Under the pieces are notes generated by a model. It saw nothing but the letters and a program-made list of their open reading frames with translations, was not told the origin of the DNA and did no database searches. Shown piece after piece: positions 3,981 through 50,807 of a DNA stretch of 64,000 nt. The position numbers and the translations under genes are program-made. Within the stretch, counting starts at the first letter, position 1. Every line of letters starts with the position of its first letter. Source of the DNA: a virus; IMG/VR virus record IMGVR_UViG_3300009194_000004, positions 1 through 64,000 of that record; one strand, written 5' to 3'.

Positions 3981-6900
3981 ATGACCGAACGAAACCGTAA
4001 AGAGATTGGGGTGGATATGCTTGGCGTGAACGCCATGGACCCCTACTTCCAAAATTCATCAGGTCCCCGGAAGGCAATGTTCTCCACCCAGATCGGTCAG
4101 GCCCCGATCGTGGATGGTAATACCCCACGCCGGATCTTCACTGGCGTGGAAACCAAATACGCCGACGACACGTTTGATGTGTCACTACCTTGCCACGCAA
4201 CCATTTTGAAAGTCATTCACAAGTTCCCTATCGGCATGGGTCGGGACGTCATTCGGCATAACCCCACCACCGTGGTGATCTACGAAGATTACTACGACCC
4301 ACATAAGACCATTGGGGTGTTGGAAGTCAACGATTTCATGTCACTACACCAGGACTTCGGGTTCCGCATGGAGAAAGATCCGGAAGTGTGGAACGAACTG
4401 GGTCCGCGTGTGATGATGGAGAAAGGGACGCGTCTGGCCAAATCCCCAGCGGTCCGTGAGAACGGTCAGTATGGGATTGGATTGGAAGCAGAAGTGGCGT
4501 TCATGTCCATGCCTGGTACCATCGAGGATGGGTTCGTGGTGTCCCGGACGTTCCTGGAACGGATGACGCCCCGAACCTACAACACGGCCGTAGGTAATTG
4601 GGGGCGGAAAGCGTTCCCGTTGAACCTTTATGGAGACGACGAGCACTATAAGCCGTTCCCGGACATTGGCGATACCATCCGGGACGACGGATTAGTGTTT
4701 GCTCTGCGGGAGATCGATGACGATCTTGGCGTGGCAGAGATGACCCCGCGTGCCCTGCGGGAAGTGGACTACGCGTTCGACAAACCATTCTTCGGGAAAC
4801 CCGGGGCCAAGATCGTGGATGTCAATGTCTACCACGATGACCGACTGAACCCGTCCAGTACGCCGGTCGGTATGGACACCCAAGCTCGGAAGTACTACGA
4901 CGCTCAGGTGGTGTTCTACCAATCACTGATGGACGAGTATAATCGCTTGGCTAAACGGCGCGGTAAGCGTCTGTGCATCACTCCCGAGTTTAACCGTTTG
5001 TTGGTGGAAGCTCAGATGTTCCTGCCAGTGGCAGGGGACCGCCGTAAGCTGACCCGGATGTACCGTCTGGAGCAACTTGACGAATGGCGTGTGGAGGTGA
5101 CCTACGAGAAACGCTTGGAATCCAACATGGGTTACAAGTTCACTGACATGCATGGTGGTAATTAATTTGTGAGGGTTCATCTATCTCCAGCAATATTAGG
5201 AGGTAAGATGAAAAAGAGTAAAGAGTTTAGACGCATTCCCGGATATGATCAATACGCTGTCAGTAAAGACGGTGTGGTGAAGTCCGTGGTTAGAGATATT
5301 GTACTCAGCCAATACCTTTTAGATGGGTATTTGATTGTAGACACGTTCCGTGGATCAAAAACGGAAACCCTACCTGTCCATAGAGCCGTTGCGTTGGCAT
5401 GGGTTGAAAACCCAAACCCTGAGAAGTTTACAGTGGTCAACCACAAAGACGGCGATCGGACAAACAATTGGTACGAGAACCTTGAGTGGACTGACTACTC
5501 AGGGAACAACTACCACGCCATTAATAGTGGTCTGCGCAACGACAACATTCCTTGTCGCATCCGGGATTTCGAAACCGGCGAGATAACGGAATTCAGTTCT
5601 ATGGCACAGGCAGCAGTGGCGATGGGTTTACGGGCATGTGAACCGTACAGTATCTTAAGACCAAAGATGTTCGGGAAGTTAGTTGCCGATAAATACGAGC
5701 TTCGGTTTAAAGACGAACCAACACCCTGGTTCTACGAAAATCGAACCGAGCGAGTTAAGCCTTCACGTTACATGGTTATTGTAACGGAAGAGGACGGTAG
5801 CAGTCGGGAAATCTTCTCGACGCGTGCTCTCCTTAAAGAGTATCAACTCTACGACAGCCCAATGAAATCAATCCCGGAGCTGGCGAAGTTTGGGAATCAG
5901 AAATACCCAAACAAAGAGTTCAAGGTACTTGACAGTTACTCCGGGGATCTTTACCGGGTTACGCGTCAAACCAAAGAGAGCCGTAAGCTACCTGTCCTGG
6001 CACGTAATCCAGATGGGGATATGCATTTCGACTCTTTGACTCAATGTGCCAAACACTTCGGTGTTGATCGTTCCGTCATTCACAATCGACTTGATAAGCA
6101 AATAGATTTGGATGGATGGACCTTCACAAGAAATATTGCCCCTTCAGTCCTTGATGGCTGAAGGAGTCTCCTTTAACTGACGGGAACGCCCTGAGAGCCT
6201 CATACACCAACTACATCGGTGGAAACACATGTAGGGCCAGTCTAATCAGCTGGACGGTAAAAGAGATGAGGATTGGGTGATCCGCAGCCAAGCTCCTACG
6301 GATCGCTGTGAAGCGAGCTACGGAGAAGGTTCAACGACTAACCGTTCACCACGGTGTACCCGCCAAGCGGCGTCGGCTAATTACCGGTTAATAGGGAAAT
6401 GGGGAGCCTCTCATTGAGGGGAAGATATAGTCTGGTCCTTGGGGAAACTCAAGGCGGGTGTCATTGCACACCGGGTACAAGTAGCGATTGTACTGGACAA
6501 AACGAAAGGCGTCGTCTGTAAGATAATGGAGGACGCCGACATGCCTGTGGATGAGAACGGCAACCGAGCCGACGTGGTCATCTATGGCATCTCCACAGTT
6601 AAACGGATGAACTTTGGTCGCTTCTACGAACAGTTCATCAACGCTGCCAGTCGGGACCTACTACACAAAGTCCGTCGTCAGGCGGGTCTGAAACACAACG
6701 TCAAACCCACCGCCTATCAGTTGGCTACGGTCAAACAGAATACGGAGGTAGTGGAGTCCATTTGGCAACAACTGATGGGTTACTACGAGATCGTGGCCCC
6801 ACTGCAACAGGACCTATTGATTGACGACCCAGACCACTGGCGTCATGTAGAAGCGGTGCTGATGGACGAGGGGACCTGGCACGATGGAATCTACCTGTGG

Positions 6901-14810: not shown

Positions 14811-14852
14811 GGCACCCTTCGGGGTGCCGTCTATGCCCTTTCTTTTTTTTTT
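14811..14852 (+). terminator. intrinsic terminator with delayed T tract
   Basis: 7-bp GGCACCC/GGGTGCC stem with a TTCG loop, then GTCTATGCCC and a run of T interrupted by one C. Closes the plus-strand unit before convergent minus genes. Confidence 0.75.
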
Positions 14853-14867
14853 GGTCAACGACATAAA

Positions 14868-14887
14868 GCCCGCCCCGAAGGGCGGGT
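14868..14887 (-). terminator. terminator of the minus-strand chaperone unit
   Basis: Read on the minus strand: ACCCGCC, six-base loop, GGCGGGC, then TTTATG. It lies three bases beyond the stop codon of the minus-strand unit that ends at 14890. Confidence 0.7.
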
Positions 14888-14889
14888 GT

Positions 14890-15408
14890 TTAATCGTCAC
14901 TGTTAGTGAAGTCCAAATCCAGTTGACGCTGCACACTGCGGTGGGTGTTCTCTTGCTGCGTGGCATCGGCTTGAGAGATGTCGTACAGCAAGTCCACGAC
15001 GTACGGCGGTAGGTCCAAGAACTCAGACAGCGACAAACCAAACTGTTTGCGGATCTGGTAATTGTAGTAACGTCGAATGTGGCTGAACAGCATGCTACCT
15101 TCCATGGCATCCTCTTTGGGATGCATGGCCACCAACGCCAGCGGCTTGTGGGGATGGGGCTTCTCATGATCGAAGATCCCATACTCGGTTTGGTAACACG
15201 ACAGGGTGATGATCTCAGCGGCCGTGGCACGGACCGCTGGGAGTTCGCGCAGCAACGCATCGATTTGGCCGGTGCTGTTTAGTTGATGCAACCCAAAGCT
15301 GGAGAACGCCACGTGCCCGTTCGCGTCGTCAAGATCGAGCGTTAGACGACTGAAACGGGCGTCCGTGTTGGTCTCCGGGTCTAGCTGTGCTTCAGGCTGA
15401 CCAACGTA
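14890..15408 (-). CDS. -1 frame extension: probable tail/baseplate assembly chaperone C-terminal domain made by frameshift
   Basis: This frame has no credible start: its only early start codon (GTG 15312) lacks a ribosome site, and clearly coding sequence (FYVGQPEAQLDPETNTDARF, then SRLTLDLDDANGHV) continues upstream without a stop to the T7 run at 15408-15414. It is exactly -1 relative to the gene in front. About 172 residues would be appended after residue 558 of that protein. The late segment FGLSLSEFLDLPPYVVDLLY resembles the short helical motif of T4 gp51-like and G/GT-type assembly chaperones. Expected product: a 730-residue fusion made at low frequency. Confidence 0.75.
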   Translation of the reverse strand, partial: YVGQPEAQLDPETNTDARFSRLTLDLDDANGHVAFSSFGLHQLNSTGQIDALLRELPAVRATAAEIITLSCYQTEYGIFDHEKPHPHKPLALVAMHPKEDAMEGSMLFSHIRRYYNYQIRKQFGLSLSEFLDLPPYVVDLLYDISQADATQQENTHRSVQRQLDLDFTNSDD

Positions 15409-17081
15409 AAAAAAGTGGTAAGAACATCAAGGGGAACCAGATGCTCAAACCGCTCCTTAAACTTCTCAGCGACCGGGGTCTGACATTTGGGACAGTTGAA
15501 CGATGGGATGGCAATCATGCTGATGAGGCTGTCGTCCATGTAACGATTCACCTCACCGAAGAACGTGTCCACGAACTCGTCGGTGGAGAAGATGTGGTTC
15601 AACGTTTCATTGATCACATCGGTGTCTTCCGACACCAGTTCTTCGTTGCCGTCCTCGTCCTTCTCGTGGATCGAGGTAACCCAATGGCTGTACTGACGGG
15701 CCGTGGTGGCCATCCCCAGACGGGTGATGTACTGATCCCGGTTACTGCCGTGAGGTGGTTCGTTGAATGCCCCTTGGGTCATTTCGATGATACCGTTTAT
15801 CCATGCCTGACCGGAGTCCTCATACTCCTGAATGCTTGGGACTTTCAGGGTCACCCCCAACTCGCCAAACCAGACCAGTCGTTGCCCGCCCCGAGTGTGT
15901 TCGGTCAGATACAGGCGCTGCTCATCGTCGGTCATCTTGGTGAATTTCCGAGCCATCAGTTTCTTCTGACCTTGGGTCAGTGAGGTACTGTCGGTCCAGT
16001 ACAGGCGGTTGAGGTTCAGTGTTTCCTTAGTGACGTGTTGGCACTTCTCCACATCTGCCAGACACGGATGGGCATATGGGAACCCTTTCGGGTACAACGT
16101 CACCGCCAAACCCCAGAGTACCATGGGGGCGTCCAACAACAGGATCTTTTCCTTCAGGTCACTTGGCGTTGTGTAATGCACGTTGCTGTCAATGACATAC
16201 TGGAGTGCGAAGTCCAGTGCTGCCGACATCAACACCTGGGCGGTGTTGGAGAACGCCATGCCCTTACTGTCCGCACCCAGCGTCACCTTGATCTGCTGTA
16301 GCTCGTATTGCAAACCGGTGATAGCTGACAGTGGTGGTGTCTTCATTCGCAGCCAAACGCCACTGTGCCACAGCGGCACATCAAATACGGTACCCACACC
16401 GGCTCGCCGAGCCAGGTAGGTCATGGTCTCCTCGCGACTGTGGTGGGTACCACCCAACTTCTGTTTGGGTTGACCCGGACGCAAGCCTTGACCTTCGTGA
16501 TCCAGGATCTGTTGCCAGTCACTACCTTCCCGTGCCAGACTGTTCTCGCCAAATCCGTTGAGTTGGGCGTAGGTCAGTGCGTTCATCGCCGTACGGAACC
16601 AAGCATTGCCTTCGTTGTCCGCAACCTCCCGGCCTTGCTTGGTGGCTTTCCTCTCCAGTTCCTCTTCCCGCGCGTTAATGTTTTCCAACATAGTCGTGGA
16701 ACGGTCGAGAACCTGACTTACCGTGCTGTAAGCTTCCCGGAAGACAGTCAGGATGTCAGTCAGCGCCGGGTCGGTAGTCAATTCCCCAGTAGTTTTCAGT
16801 TTCTCTTCAAACTGGTGGTACGGCTGGTCGGGCACGAACGCATCGGTGGCCTCATCTTCGGGCTCTTCGTCACCCTCATTGCTGGGGTCGTTCCCGGTAT
16901 CGGCTTCGCCTTCCTCGGTGGTTTCCTGTGTTGGGTGGTCGTGGTCTTCAGGCTCGGTGTTCAGAGCCATGTCTTCAGGCTCCGGCTCGCCGAACCGCCC
17001 CTGAAACTCTTCGGGAGTGGGTTGGGTATCGGACGACTCGTTGTTGACGTTCGGATTTTCGTTAGAATCGTTCTGATCCAT
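15381..17081 (-). CDS. probable tail/baseplate assembly protein, 566 aa, zero-frame product
   Basis: Start ATG 17081 follows immediately after the previous minus gene. The first 85 residues are very acidic and low in complexity (Glu, Asp, Pro, Thr), then a folded body. Near the end is FNCPKCQTPV ... LVPLDVLTTFF; this CxxC followed by PLD..FF resembles the C-terminus of T4 gp26-like baseplate hub assembly proteins, which supports the chaperone idea. The zero frame stops eight codons after the slippery T7 site. Alternative: an unrelated structural protein of the phiKZ gp78 region. Confidence 0.75.
   Translation of the reverse strand: MDQNDSNENPNVNNESSDTQPTPEEFQGRFGEPEPEDMALNTEPEDHDHPTQETTEEGEADTGNDPSNEGDEEPEDEATDAFVPDQPYHQFEEKLKTTGELTTDPALTDILTVFREAYSTVSQVLDRSTTMLENINAREEELERKATKQGREVADNEGNAWFRTAMNALTYAQLNGFGENSLAREGSDWQQILDHEGQGLRPGQPKQKLGGTHHSREETMTYLARRAGVGTVFDVPLWHSGVWLRMKTPPLSAITGLQYELQQIKVTLGADSKGMAFSNTAQVLMSAALDFALQYVIDSNVHYTTPSDLKEKILLLDAPMVLWGLAVTLYPKGFPYAHPCLADVEKCQHVTKETLNLNRLYWTDSTSLTQGQKKLMARKFTKMTDDEQRLYLTEHTRGGQRLVWFGELGVTLKVPSIQEYEDSGQAWINGIIEMTQGAFNEPPHGSNRDQYITRLGMATTARQYSHWVTSIHEKDEDGNEELVSEDTDVINETLNHIFSTDEFVDTFFGEVNRYMDDSLISMIAIPSFNCPKCQTPVAEKFKERFEHLVPLDVLTTFFTLVSLKHS
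15399..15414 (-). promoter_or_regulatory. programmed -1 ribosomal frameshift site
   Basis: On the minus strand the zero-frame codons read ACT TTT TTT ACG, i.e. the heptamer T TTT TTT (15408-15414) in the correct X XXY YYZ phase. Two bases downstream GTTGGTC (15399-15405) can pair perfectly with GACCAAC (15367-15373), placing the zero-frame TAG in the loop, a typical stimulatory layout although the spacer is short. After slipping, the next codon is TAC and the -1 frame is open for 172 codons. Confidence 0.75.
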
Positions 17082-17083
17082 TG

Positions 17084-17596
17084 TTAAGCCTCTTCCGTTG
17101 CAGGGGTGAGTTCCAGCATGTCACCGTGTTGCTCACGAATGACTTCAATCAGTGAAAGAATCAGCGGGGCAATAACCGTTTCGAAATGCGTTTCCAGGTT
17201 ACTATATTCCATGCTGATTGAGAACATCACCGGCCAATCTTTCTCAGGCGGTACGCCCGAACGCCCTGCGTGTTTCTGATGGAGCGCGTCCAGGTTTTCT
17301 TTGTACTGTTTGATGTCACCAAGCAGTGTGTTGAAGCAACGAGAGAAACCGTCGGGGTCGTCCAGCTTCTCTTTCAGAGTGTCGAGCTGGTTCATGACTG
17401 GCAAGGTGAATCCCTGCGTGTGCAGAAGCTTCTTGGCACATTGGTGATACATCTGGTTAAGGACTTCCCAACCGGTTTCCGACTTCAATACAGCGTCGGC
17501 AACTACGCGTTGTGTTGCCTCGATATCTTCCTTGGTCAGGTCAACATCTTGTACATCAGCCGGTGCTTCATTAAGGTTCTTTTCGTTGGAAGACAT
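17084..17596 (-). CDS. hypothetical protein, 170 aa, first gene of the minus chaperone unit
   Basis: Begins at ATG 17596 and ends two bases before the next start, so the genes are tightly coupled. The sequence is helical and acidic at both ends, with a central stretch rich in His, Lys and Leu (MYHQCAKKLLHTQG). No domain is recognised. From its place it may help tail or baseplate assembly. Confidence 0.65.
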   Translation of the reverse strand: MSSNEKNLNEAPADVQDVDLTKEDIEATQRVVADAVLKSETGWEVLNQMYHQCAKKLLHTQGFTLPVMNQLDTLKEKLDDPDGFSRCFNTLLGDIKQYKENLDALHQKHAGRSGVPPEKDWPVMFSISMEYSNLETHFETVIAPLILSLIEVIREQHGDMLELTPATEEA

Positions 17597-48870: not shown

Positions 48871-49458
48871 ATGGCACGGGAAAAGAAACCCAAGACGGCC
48901 GCGTACCGGCTGTTCCATTTCAAATACGAAATGCGGATTCCGCAGATCTTCATGTACGGCATGGATTACCTGGAGAAGAACGGGTACCATGTCAGTGGGG
49001 ACGTGGCGCTGGACCGACAACGGTTGATGGAGCCGTCGGTGATGCGCCAAACCGCCGCTGGTTTGGCCATGTTGCACGACGAAGGGGCACCCATCGACTT
49101 TGTGAATGAGCGGGACGCAGTGGATGTGTACGAAGACATTCAGGAGCACCTACATGACTGGGAGCGGGTCGCGGTTCAGGGCATTCACCCGGACGACGCG
49201 CCATCCATTGAAGAATTCCGCCAGCTCGAAGCGGTGGCCTCGGCGTTGTACACCACGTCCAAGTTCTACGAGCCGGACGAGTCTTCCGGTGACCCGCTGC
49301 GCGATCGTTTGATGATGATGAACCGCCGACGCAACCCGGTCCGCACCGAGCGGTACCTTCGTGACAAGATCACCACGGAGAAAGGGGAATTGAAACCCTA
49401 CGTCTCGATCGTGGATCGAATTGAGCGGGCCTTGGTGGAGAATAACCCATGGGCGTAG
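48871..49458 (+). CDS. tail-module protein, 195 aa
   Basis: ATG 48871 follows the previous stop by three bases (AGCGAGG ahead). Helical, with many Arg, Glu and Tyr residues; begins MAREKKPKTAAYRLFHFKYE. Overlaps the next gene by 10 bases. Not recognised; co-expressed with the tail genes. Confidence 0.65.
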   Translation: MAREKKPKTAAYRLFHFKYEMRIPQIFMYGMDYLEKNGYHVSGDVALDRQRLMEPSVMRQTAAGLAMLHDEGAPIDFVNERDAVDVYEDIQEHLHDWERVAVQGIHPDDAPSIEEFRQLEAVASALYTTSKFYEPDESSGDPLRDRLMMMNRRRNPVRTERYLRDKITTEKGELKPYVSIVDRIERALVENNPWA

Positions 49459-50807
49459 ATGCAACCTTATTGATGCGGGAGGTTCAGGCCATTGCCGATA
49501 AGGGCGATGGCTTGCAACACTACCGACTGACCTGTCGGATTCGGGCGGGGAACCATTGGATGTCCCCCATGCGACTGACACATTTCTCACTGGAACGGGA
49601 CTACGAGTCCGCCAATGGCGACGGTGTCAGTTTGGAACTCCAAATGGGTCGCGGGGAATACACGTACCGTATCGTGCCTAACCGGGACGAGCTGTGGGTG
49701 GATCTGACCGCCACACCCCTGTACGAGAACTCCGACATTCAGCGTGGTGATAAAGGCAGTAACACCCGCCGCTACCGAGCGATTCTCGTGGACCAAGAAG
49801 ACGACGCCGTGACGGGTCGCTCGCCTCAAGCCGGCTCGGAGGAAGACCTCAATCGATCCAGCCCTAAGGTAGTCCACTTGCAGTTGATGGACGAAGGGTT
49901 CTACCAATCACGTATGGTGAGTGTGGGTCGGAACTACCGGAAGATTCCACCGGCACAGGCACTCCGTTCATTGTTGACCGAAACCCGGAGTCTGGTGACT
50001 GGGAAGGACCAGCAAAAGATCCGAGGGGCGGATCTGGTGGAGGGGTTCAACACCAAACCCCGAGAACAGATCGTCATACCCCATGGGACGCCGCTGCTGA
50101 AGGTTCCCAAGTTACTGCAAGAAGAGGAAGGGGGTATCTACCCCACTGGGTTGGGGTGTTATCTACAGGACGGTCTGTGGTACATCTACCCGTTGTATAA
50201 CCTGGAACGGCATAAGAAGGACCCCCGGGTCCTGACGGTGTTGAATGTCCCTCCCAACCGGTACCACGGTGCCGAGCGAACCTTTCGGAAAACCAAGAAC
50301 CAAGTGGTGGTGGTGGCTACTGGGAACATGGCGGGCTACGACACAGGTCTGTACGGTCAGTTGAACGAAGGCAACGCCATGCGGTTCATGGACGCGGACC
50401 AGCTACTGAACCCGGTGGAGCATGGCGACAACAAAGCCATTGCTCGTCGTCAGGACAACATGTTCGAATTCGAAGGGGCAAAGCTGAAGTCCGGTTTCTC
50501 CAACGCGCGTTGGGCACCGGAGCGGGCGACCTCCAACCCGTTCAAGTACTACAGCAAACTGGCCCACCGGAAAGGTCGTTACGTGTTGGTTCAGTGGCAG
50601 CACGGGGATTCGTCGCTGTTGTACCCTGGAATGCCTGTGAAATTTTTAACTAACGCCAACAATGAGTTGAAGACACTCCACGGTGTGTTGGTTGGGGTCC
50701 ATGAACAACGGATGGCCCAAGAGCCCGGTCCGGTCAACAGTCGGTACCCGGCGATCATCACGCTGAAACTCTTTTTGGAACGCGAGGAAACGCGACCACA
50801 ACAGTAA
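49449..50807 (+). CDS. tail/baseplate hub-like structural protein, 452 aa
   Basis: ATG 49449 within the end of the previous gene. The protein contains an IPHGTPLLKVPKLLQEE...GIYPTGLGCYLQDGLWYIYPLY segment, whose layout (short helix followed by Gly-x-Tyr strands) is like the LysM/hub portion of gp27-type baseplate hub proteins, and a final region KYYSKLAHRKGRYVLVQW. The assignment to the hub is tentative; structural role in the tail is more secure from context. Confidence 0.6.
   Translation: MGVDATLLMREVQAIADKGDGLQHYRLTCRIRAGNHWMSPMRLTHFSLERDYESANGDGVSLELQMGRGEYTYRIVPNRDELWVDLTATPLYENSDIQRGDKGSNTRRYRAILVDQEDDAVTGRSPQAGSEEDLNRSSPKVVHLQLMDEGFYQSRMVSVGRNYRKIPPAQALRSLLTETRSLVTGKDQQKIRGADLVEGFNTKPREQIVIPHGTPLLKVPKLLQEEEGGIYPTGLGCYLQDGLWYIYPLYNLERHKKDPRVLTVLNVPPNRYHGAERTFRKTKNQVVVVATGNMAGYDTGLYGQLNEGNAMRFMDADQLLNPVEHGDNKAIARRQDNMFEFEGAKLKSGFSNARWAPERATSNPFKYYSKLAHRKGRYVLVQWQHGDSSLLYPGMPVKFLTNANNELKTLHGVLVGVHEQRMAQEPGPVNSRYPAIITLKLFLEREETRPQQ

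Follow-up and report, generated by a model that had tools for sequence, protein, structure and literature searches.

A likely programmed −1 frameshift in a probable assembly chaperone gene of a phiKZ-like jumbo phage and its relatives

The stretch of viral DNA analysed here (the window; positions 1 to 64,000 of IMG/VR record IMGVR_UViG_3300009194_000004, which has 131,438 bases) comes from a phiKZ-like jumbo phage, and a locus on its minus strand most probably encodes a short form of 566 amino acids (aa) and a long form of 730 aa of one assembly chaperone by means of a programmed −1 frameshift. The 0-frame gene (15381..17081, minus strand), a homologue of phiKZ gp077, PhiPA3 gp074 and 201phi2-1 gp136, carries an in-phase slippery heptamer, T TTT TTT (15408..15414), with eight sense codons between it and the TAG stop codon (15381..15383). 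The −1 frame is open for 172 codons (15408-14893) and ends at a TAA (14892-14890); this extension (14890..15408) is a homologue of PhiPA3 gp073 and 201phi2-1 gp135, and slippage would yield a fusion of 558 + 172 = 730 aa. A first-pass annotation, made from the window sequence, had described both the heptamer with its eight codons and the 172-codon open frame, and direct inspection of the sequence agrees with it on both. A protein identical to the 0-frame product is also encoded on a 231,818-base IMG/VR contig.

Homologues of the 0-frame protein were found in 220 of 50,697 phage records (tblastn, expectation value (E) <= 1e-5), and homologues of the −1 frame in 72 records. We compared the junction in 18 named phages (Noxifer, phiKZ, PhiPA3, 201phi2-1, PS119XW, Psa21, D6, Phabio, RVTF4, Viktualia, RAY, pEa_SNUABM_54, KpHz_2, Goslar, SPLA10, Moabite, SPAsTU and BONAISHI) and in 83 distinct viral contigs, 81 of which have distinct junctions; clustering at 75% identity left 65 junctions, which share ancestry and should not be read as independent events. 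In all 18 named phages the −1 frame reads through the end of the 0-frame gene without interruption, and in 17 of them it continues for 100 codons or more beyond the stop. This alignment of homologues, which the first-pass annotation had suggested as a check, further revealed that the −1 frame is open in 81 of 81 contig junctions, continuing for 122 codons or more beyond the stop in 80 (the exception, locus L097, is short because the contig ends), and that 75 of the 81 have at the same place an in-phase TTT followed by TTT (52), TTC (22) or TTG (1). The heptamers at these 75 sites are T_TTT_TTT (44), T_TTT_TTC (19), G_TTT_TTT (8), G_TTT_TTC (3) and T_TTT_TTG (1). After clustering (n = 65), TTT TTN was present in 62, a run of at least six T in 61 and the long −1 frame in 64. 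The distance from the slip site to the 0-frame stop is 8-19 sense codons in 72 of the 75 relatives and 37 in three. With regard to longer distances, the site lies 37 sense codons ahead of the stop in L134-L136 and in Moabite (L020), and 44 in SPLA10 (L019; counted from the alignment), and the short form would therefore have a longer private tail in these phages.

The T run is preserved as nucleotides, beyond any need for two phenylalanines, because both a TTT-first Phe-Phe pair and six consecutive T are so rare elsewhere in these genes. Runs of at least six T occur within the last 125 nucleotides (nt) of 73 of the 81 genes, compared with only four in 119,592 other bases (the same genes with the last 120 nt left out). 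Elsewhere in the genes TTT accounts for 484 of 1251 Phe codons, and none of the 25 other Phe-Phe pairs starts with TTT. The site also stands above chance within the window: among 48 non-overlapping open reading frames (ORFs) of at least 150 aa, a long −1 frame occurs in seven and an overlap containing a TTT TTN pair in two, and since the two features (with the −1 frame continuing for 100 codons or more beyond the stop) coincide in this gene only, 1 of 48, a fortuitous combination is not what we would expect.

Candidate starts in the −1 frame come late. The first-pass annotation had stated that it has no usable start; ATG is indeed absent from its first 94 codons in the window, and the statement was slightly too strong in that a GTG at 15312 (codon 33) is the earliest candidate start, for which no clear ribosome-binding site was seen by eye. 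In 69 of the 75 relatives the first ATG, GTG or TTG (NTG) is at least 20 codons past the slip, with distances of 85 codons in L029 and 101 in L044, and the first ATG is at least 20 codons past it or absent in 72. Conserved residues nevertheless start right after the slip in the closer relatives (FYxG..E, SRL, GHV and FG). In the segment from the 0-frame stop to the first possible start, codon positions 1, 2 and 3 differed 71, 36 and 134 times (293 codon comparisons), and in the remainder of the −1 frame 652, 393 and 1462 times; synonymous and nonsynonymous codon changes were 82 and 76 before the first possible start and 1009 and 732 downstream. These counts come from 24 non-independent pairs (five including a named-phage locus), of which 19 contributed, and 168 of the 293 comparisons come from four pairs. 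Substitutions ahead of any possible start are thus of the coding type, like those further downstream. The conserved segment argues for a fusion, because a separately started protein would omit it. Of the 17 named phages with annotation, 16 place the start of the downstream gene beyond the slip (RAY starts it upstream; KpHz_2 is without annotation), and the N-terminal part of the downstream protein is therefore missing from these 16 annotations, which would need correction.

With the site and frame kept in relatives and coding-type substitution before any possible start, the programmed frameshift put forward in the first-pass annotation is upheld, and we regard −1 frameshifting at the T TTT TTT site as very likely. 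Sequence comparison establishes the site, the two frames, their conservation, the coding-type evolution and the distant homology presented below. In the mechanism we propose, most ribosomes would terminate at the TAG at 15383-15381 and release the short form, and a fraction would slip back one base on T TTT TTT, resume at the TAC at 15408 and add 172 residues. The core would bind its client and the minority long form would recruit the next component, with the −1 part playing the role of the C-terminal extension of T4 gp51 ('hub assembly catalyst'), by analogy with the T part of lambda G/GT; both forms would leave before the virion is complete. We infer the ribosomal nature of the slip, its efficiency, the ratio of the two forms and the clients, the last, together with the task of the long form, by analogy with lambda G/GT. 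If correct, the proposal assigns a function to an uncharacterised gene pair found in every phiKZ-type relative examined, and adds a likely recoding event to the nucleus-forming jumbo phages. Among the titles and abstract openings listed in a search of the open-licence literature, a scope outside which most subscription papers fall, none reports a frameshift in phiKZ gp077 or in gp26/gp51.

Several features of the junction weigh against this interpretation. In RVTF4 (L013), an apparent indel at about 4050-4120 breaks the −1 ORF, and the rest of the domain continues in another frame. Six of the 81 junctions (L026, L096 and L103-L106) have a T5 run only, as GTT TTT or CTT TTT, and the heptamers of some relatives are imperfect (G_TTT_TTC, and A_TTT_TTC in PS119XW). 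In seven of the 75 relatives the −1 frame contains an NTG ahead of the slip, and in two it has one two codons past it. Finally, there was no family-wide stem signal at the site, the mean z-score being −0.35 at +6 nt (60-nt stretch) and −0.26 at +10.

The last point concerns RNA structure, which is common downstream of −1 frameshift sites as a stimulator and not obligatory. The first-pass annotation had noted a perfect stem shortly after the heptamer, and its arms, GTTGGTC (15405-15399) and GACCAAC (15373-15367), are present and complementary around a 25-nt loop (15367..15405, minus strand). A role as stimulator was not supported: the pairing is weak, with z = −1.52 over a 57-nt stretch chosen by hand and +0.23 over 82 nt, and is not kept in the closest relatives (L024, L025 and L026), where the 3' arm is changed. 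Across offsets from −90 to +160 the mean z ranged from −0.23 to −0.85, the lowest value (−0.85) being at +40 nt; the scan covered stems by z-score, with pseudoknots outside the search. We therefore rejected the stem as a stimulator, unconserved as it is and without a family-wide signal at the site, and it is probably not part of the frameshift system. Separately, L042, L073 and L075 have a strong hairpin starting about 7-9 nt past the heptamer, a candidate stimulator in this subgroup.

The AlphaFold2 model of the 0-frame protein had a mean predicted local distance difference test score (pLDDT) of 85.3 (78-row alignment), with a low-confidence N-terminal stretch. When it was compared with BFVD using Foldseek, the 19 best matches included proteins of the jumbo phages vB_KvM-Eowyn, Special G, RP12, RSF1 and phiEaH2, unnamed entries, and a 'Baseplate protein' of Myoviridae sp. 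ctLnO19. Most of ranks 20-26 were occupied by baseplate hub proteins of the T4-like kind, with E from 1.0e-4 to 1.0e-3 and target-length TM-scores of 0.45-0.55. The hub-protein matches were A0A6J5KPC0 (E 1.0e-4), SP-15, phiA8-29, A0A6J5S556 and ACP17, the last being a 'baseplate hub assembly chaperone' with a TM-score of 0.55 by target length and 0.28 by query. The profile comparison with T4 gp26/gp51 that the first-pass annotation had suggested was made using hhalign: the 78-row profile matched a 14-member gp26/gp51 alignment with probability 73 and a pairwise E of 3.1e-05, and the 194 aligned columns are collinear up to the terminal FF. The score of 44.8 compares with 18.8 for the reversed profile and no more than 22.9 among 60 shuffled decoys. 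Fold match and profile match together favour the baseplate or tail assembly chaperone suggested by the first-pass annotation. The protein also has a cysteine pair in a CPKC motif (C530/C533; codons hand-counted to 15483..15494, minus strand), the counterpart of the C-terminal CxxC of T4 gp26; the pair is invariant in a 15-member alignment but missing from several contig relatives.

On the other side of the balance, a Pfam search gave no family, PF12322 included, for the window 0-frame protein, and searches of the PDB with Foldseek and VIA-align 2 returned nothing significant for either the 0-frame or the −1 model, a known fold still being possible. In PHROGs, the window proteins matched families of unknown function only, and the 0-frame protein had no match to phrog_150, which was reached weakly by three of the 78 alignment members (best E 4.4e-4). 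It should be underlined that the chaperone identity rests on distant homology and not on a Pfam or named PHROG match of the window protein, which is likely to be a distant relative, and not a member, of PF12322/phrog_150, the family of T4 gp26 and gp51. With regard to its fate, the chaperone would presumably be absent from the virion. In the 201phi2-1 record, 'identified using mass spectrometry' appears at gp138 and gp139 and not at gp135-137, and PMC11849849 lists Churi gp256, a homologue of phiKZ gp077, in a selection of non-structural proteins that were detected at 15 min of infection.

The −1 extension gave a model of still higher confidence (mean pLDDT 91.8; 59-row alignment). Its assignment as a catalyst-like part faces two difficulties: it had no phrog_634 match in the PHROG search, and hhalign against the hub-assembly-catalyst profile was marginal (score 19.5 compared with a decoy maximum of 17.7). 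Pfam gave one BrxL_N match to the −1 part, far below the cut-off (E 0.24), and single-member matches only over the 59 rows.

A conserved −1 frameshift of tail assembly chaperones was reportedly described by Xu, Hendrix and Duda in 2004. As is proposed for the phiKZ-type genes, lambda G/GT involves a −1 slip near the end of a chaperone gene that gives a minority, C-terminally extended form. The site of −1 slippage in phage P2 is T-rich. The frameshift could be real and the protein a G/GT chaperone of the classical kind, serving the tape-measure protein and not the baseplate hub, a reading that we consider unlikely while giving it some weight. G-type tail assembly chaperones (Gemini, 9NA, Finch and K1H) and phage G gp181/gp182 did appear in BFVD, only at E 0.19-1.2 and among unnamed entries, but the matches to T4-like hub assembly proteins were better by some three orders of magnitude, and gp26/gp51 is where the profile match lies (G families were not among the profiles compared). 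Moreover, the lambda pair sits directly upstream of the tape-measure gene, whereas no tape-measure gene was recognised among the neighbours examined in the window. The kinship of the phiKZ-type family is with T4 gp26/gp51, and T4 is the exception in the statement of PMC5009743 that G-T frameshifting is widely conserved among long-tailed phages 'except T4'.

In a second alternative the slip is transcriptional, the phage RNA polymerase adding one U on the T run so that the fusion is read from an altered message. The runs comprise 5 (3 sites), 6 (15), 7 (39), 8 (16) or 9 (2) T, and 57 of the 75 sites thus fall in the range of 7-9 T where polymerase slippage is conceivable; a gene for a phage RNA polymerase beta subunit also lies nearby. 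However, 18 of the 75 sites have five or six T only, the second codon is TTC in 22, and six more relatives have only T5; such short runs speak against polymerase slippage as a general mechanism. Polymerase slippage would need no TTT TTN phase, yet the runs are in phase, a point tempered in that the Phe-Phe pair may be kept otherwise. We regard this explanation as improbable.

Even less probable, in our judgement, is that translation of the downstream ORF begins at an internal codon (in the window, GTG 15312) and gives a protein of its own, with no fusion at all. The annotated starts described above are in its favour, as is the start codon at the junction of many PF12322 relatives, but the late NTG, the conserved and coding-type stretch before it, and the T run, which a separate start leaves unexplained, point the other way. 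Separate initiation is accordingly rejected for the phiKZ family and retained for the PF12322 phages. That a sequencing error in the homopolymer, a kind of sequence prone to such errors, split one gene is hardly credible and is refuted by the comparative data, since in spite of the apparent indel further downstream in RVTF4 the junction recurs across the 18 named phages and the 81 contigs and 0-frame conservation continues past the Phe-Phe pair, with L560 nearly invariant in the 15-member alignment.

Returning to T4, gp26 and gp51 both belong to PF12322/phrog_150, and the C-terminus of gp51 matches phrog_634 'baseplate hub assembly catalyst'; gp51, a paralogue of gp26, in this way resembles a built-in long form. 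The phiKZ-type protein is like them in predicted fold and in the collinear profile up to the terminal FF; the C-terminal CxxC is common to T4 gp26, PhiSH19, VH7D and others, with NPKT-like residues in its place in cyanophages. In contrast, the phiKZ-type proteins (474-612 aa in the 81 contig relatives) are about twice the size of T4 gp26 (208 aa) and gp51 (249 aa) and give no score in PF12322, their long form requires a frameshift, unlike gp51, and the extension comprises 172 aa here as against about 60 aa for the catalyst.

A gp26-type gene followed by a −1 catalyst ORF occurs in cyanophages, Pootjesviridae, Schizotequatrovirus and Ackermannviridae. In nine such phages (Sf-FS3, S-CAM1, PhiSH19, K5lambda5, VH7D, K444, RHph_Y68, RL38J1 and Cygsa01), all above the PF12322 cut-off, the −1 ORF was open across the stop in 9 of 9 and matched phrog_634 in eight (E 0.0028 to 4.5e-29), and K444 matched only phrog_9633. 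The codons before the stop were TTT TT[C/G] in five, ATT TTC in three and CTT TTT in one, and in PhiSH19, K5lambda5 and S-CAM1 the first NTG came only 17-29 nt past the stop. The gp26-type gene of cyanophage Sf-FS3 ends AGT TTT TTC GCT TAA, with the catalyst ORF open in the −1 frame through the site, and T_TTT_TTC, one codon and a stop were found in 57 of 57 distinct junctions of this type, two of whose −1 ORFs run off their contigs. As a side observation, about 505 unannotated bases (~2005-2520) follow the gp26-type gene in the Ackermannviridae PhiSH19 (L223) and K5lambda5 (L227), the first 158 of which contain a −1 ORF that matches phrog_9633, and weakly phrog_634, without an early start codon.

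These layouts raise the possibility that the gp26/gp51 hub-chaperone superfamily, which would span nucleus-forming jumbo phages as well as cyanophages and Ackermannviridae, has as its ancestral state a short and a long chaperone produced by −1 frameshifting at a C-terminal Phe-Phe pair, and that T4 replaced this by duplication. We propose, on that supposition, that gp26 is a fixed short form and gp51 a fixed, in-frame long form, which offers a testable reason for T4 having the two proteins, seemingly without the widespread chaperone frameshift. We hold this tentatively and lean slightly against it, in view of the following. T4 gp26 ends GAG TTC TTT GAG TTA CTA TAA, without a T run, and the −1 frame at its end is gene 25, started at an overlapping ATG, so that the frameshift layout is absent. 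An ATG overlaps the stop in five of the nine PF12322 phages, and the earliest ATG occupies the fourth −1 codon past the site in 57 of 57 cyanophage-type junctions, which lowers the likelihood of an ancestral frameshift replaced by duplication in T4, as separate initiation is possible. Because a start codon is often found at the junction, the PF12322 layout alone is no proof of frameshifting; coupled initiation could therefore suffice there. A leading TTT is also less telling in the cyanophages because it is the commoner Phe codon in those genes (elsewhere TTT 448, TTC 200).

As for the surroundings of the locus, a 170-aa gene on the same strand (17084..17596) adjoins the 0-frame gene upstream; it is of the phiKZ gp078 type by position and belongs to phrog_14050, with no function assigned. 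The neighbours thus comprise this phrog_14050 gene, a phrog_5038 gene (head-protein homologue) and the RNA polymerase beta subunit gene. A terminator-like hairpin (14869..14886, minus strand), identified by consensus match only, lies 3 nt past the −1 frame stop, and both frames may therefore share one transcript end; the region contains nine such consensus matches compared with 3.4 expected. A ten-A run (minus strand) at 14843-14852 lies between two terminator-like hairpins in a gap between convergent genes. Elsewhere in the window, an ORF at 49449-50807 has a C TTT TTG pair overlapping a short (25-codon) −1 frame, probably by chance, and an 865-aa ORF at 9476-12073 matches DNA helicase (phrog_16) as well as terminase and primase profiles.

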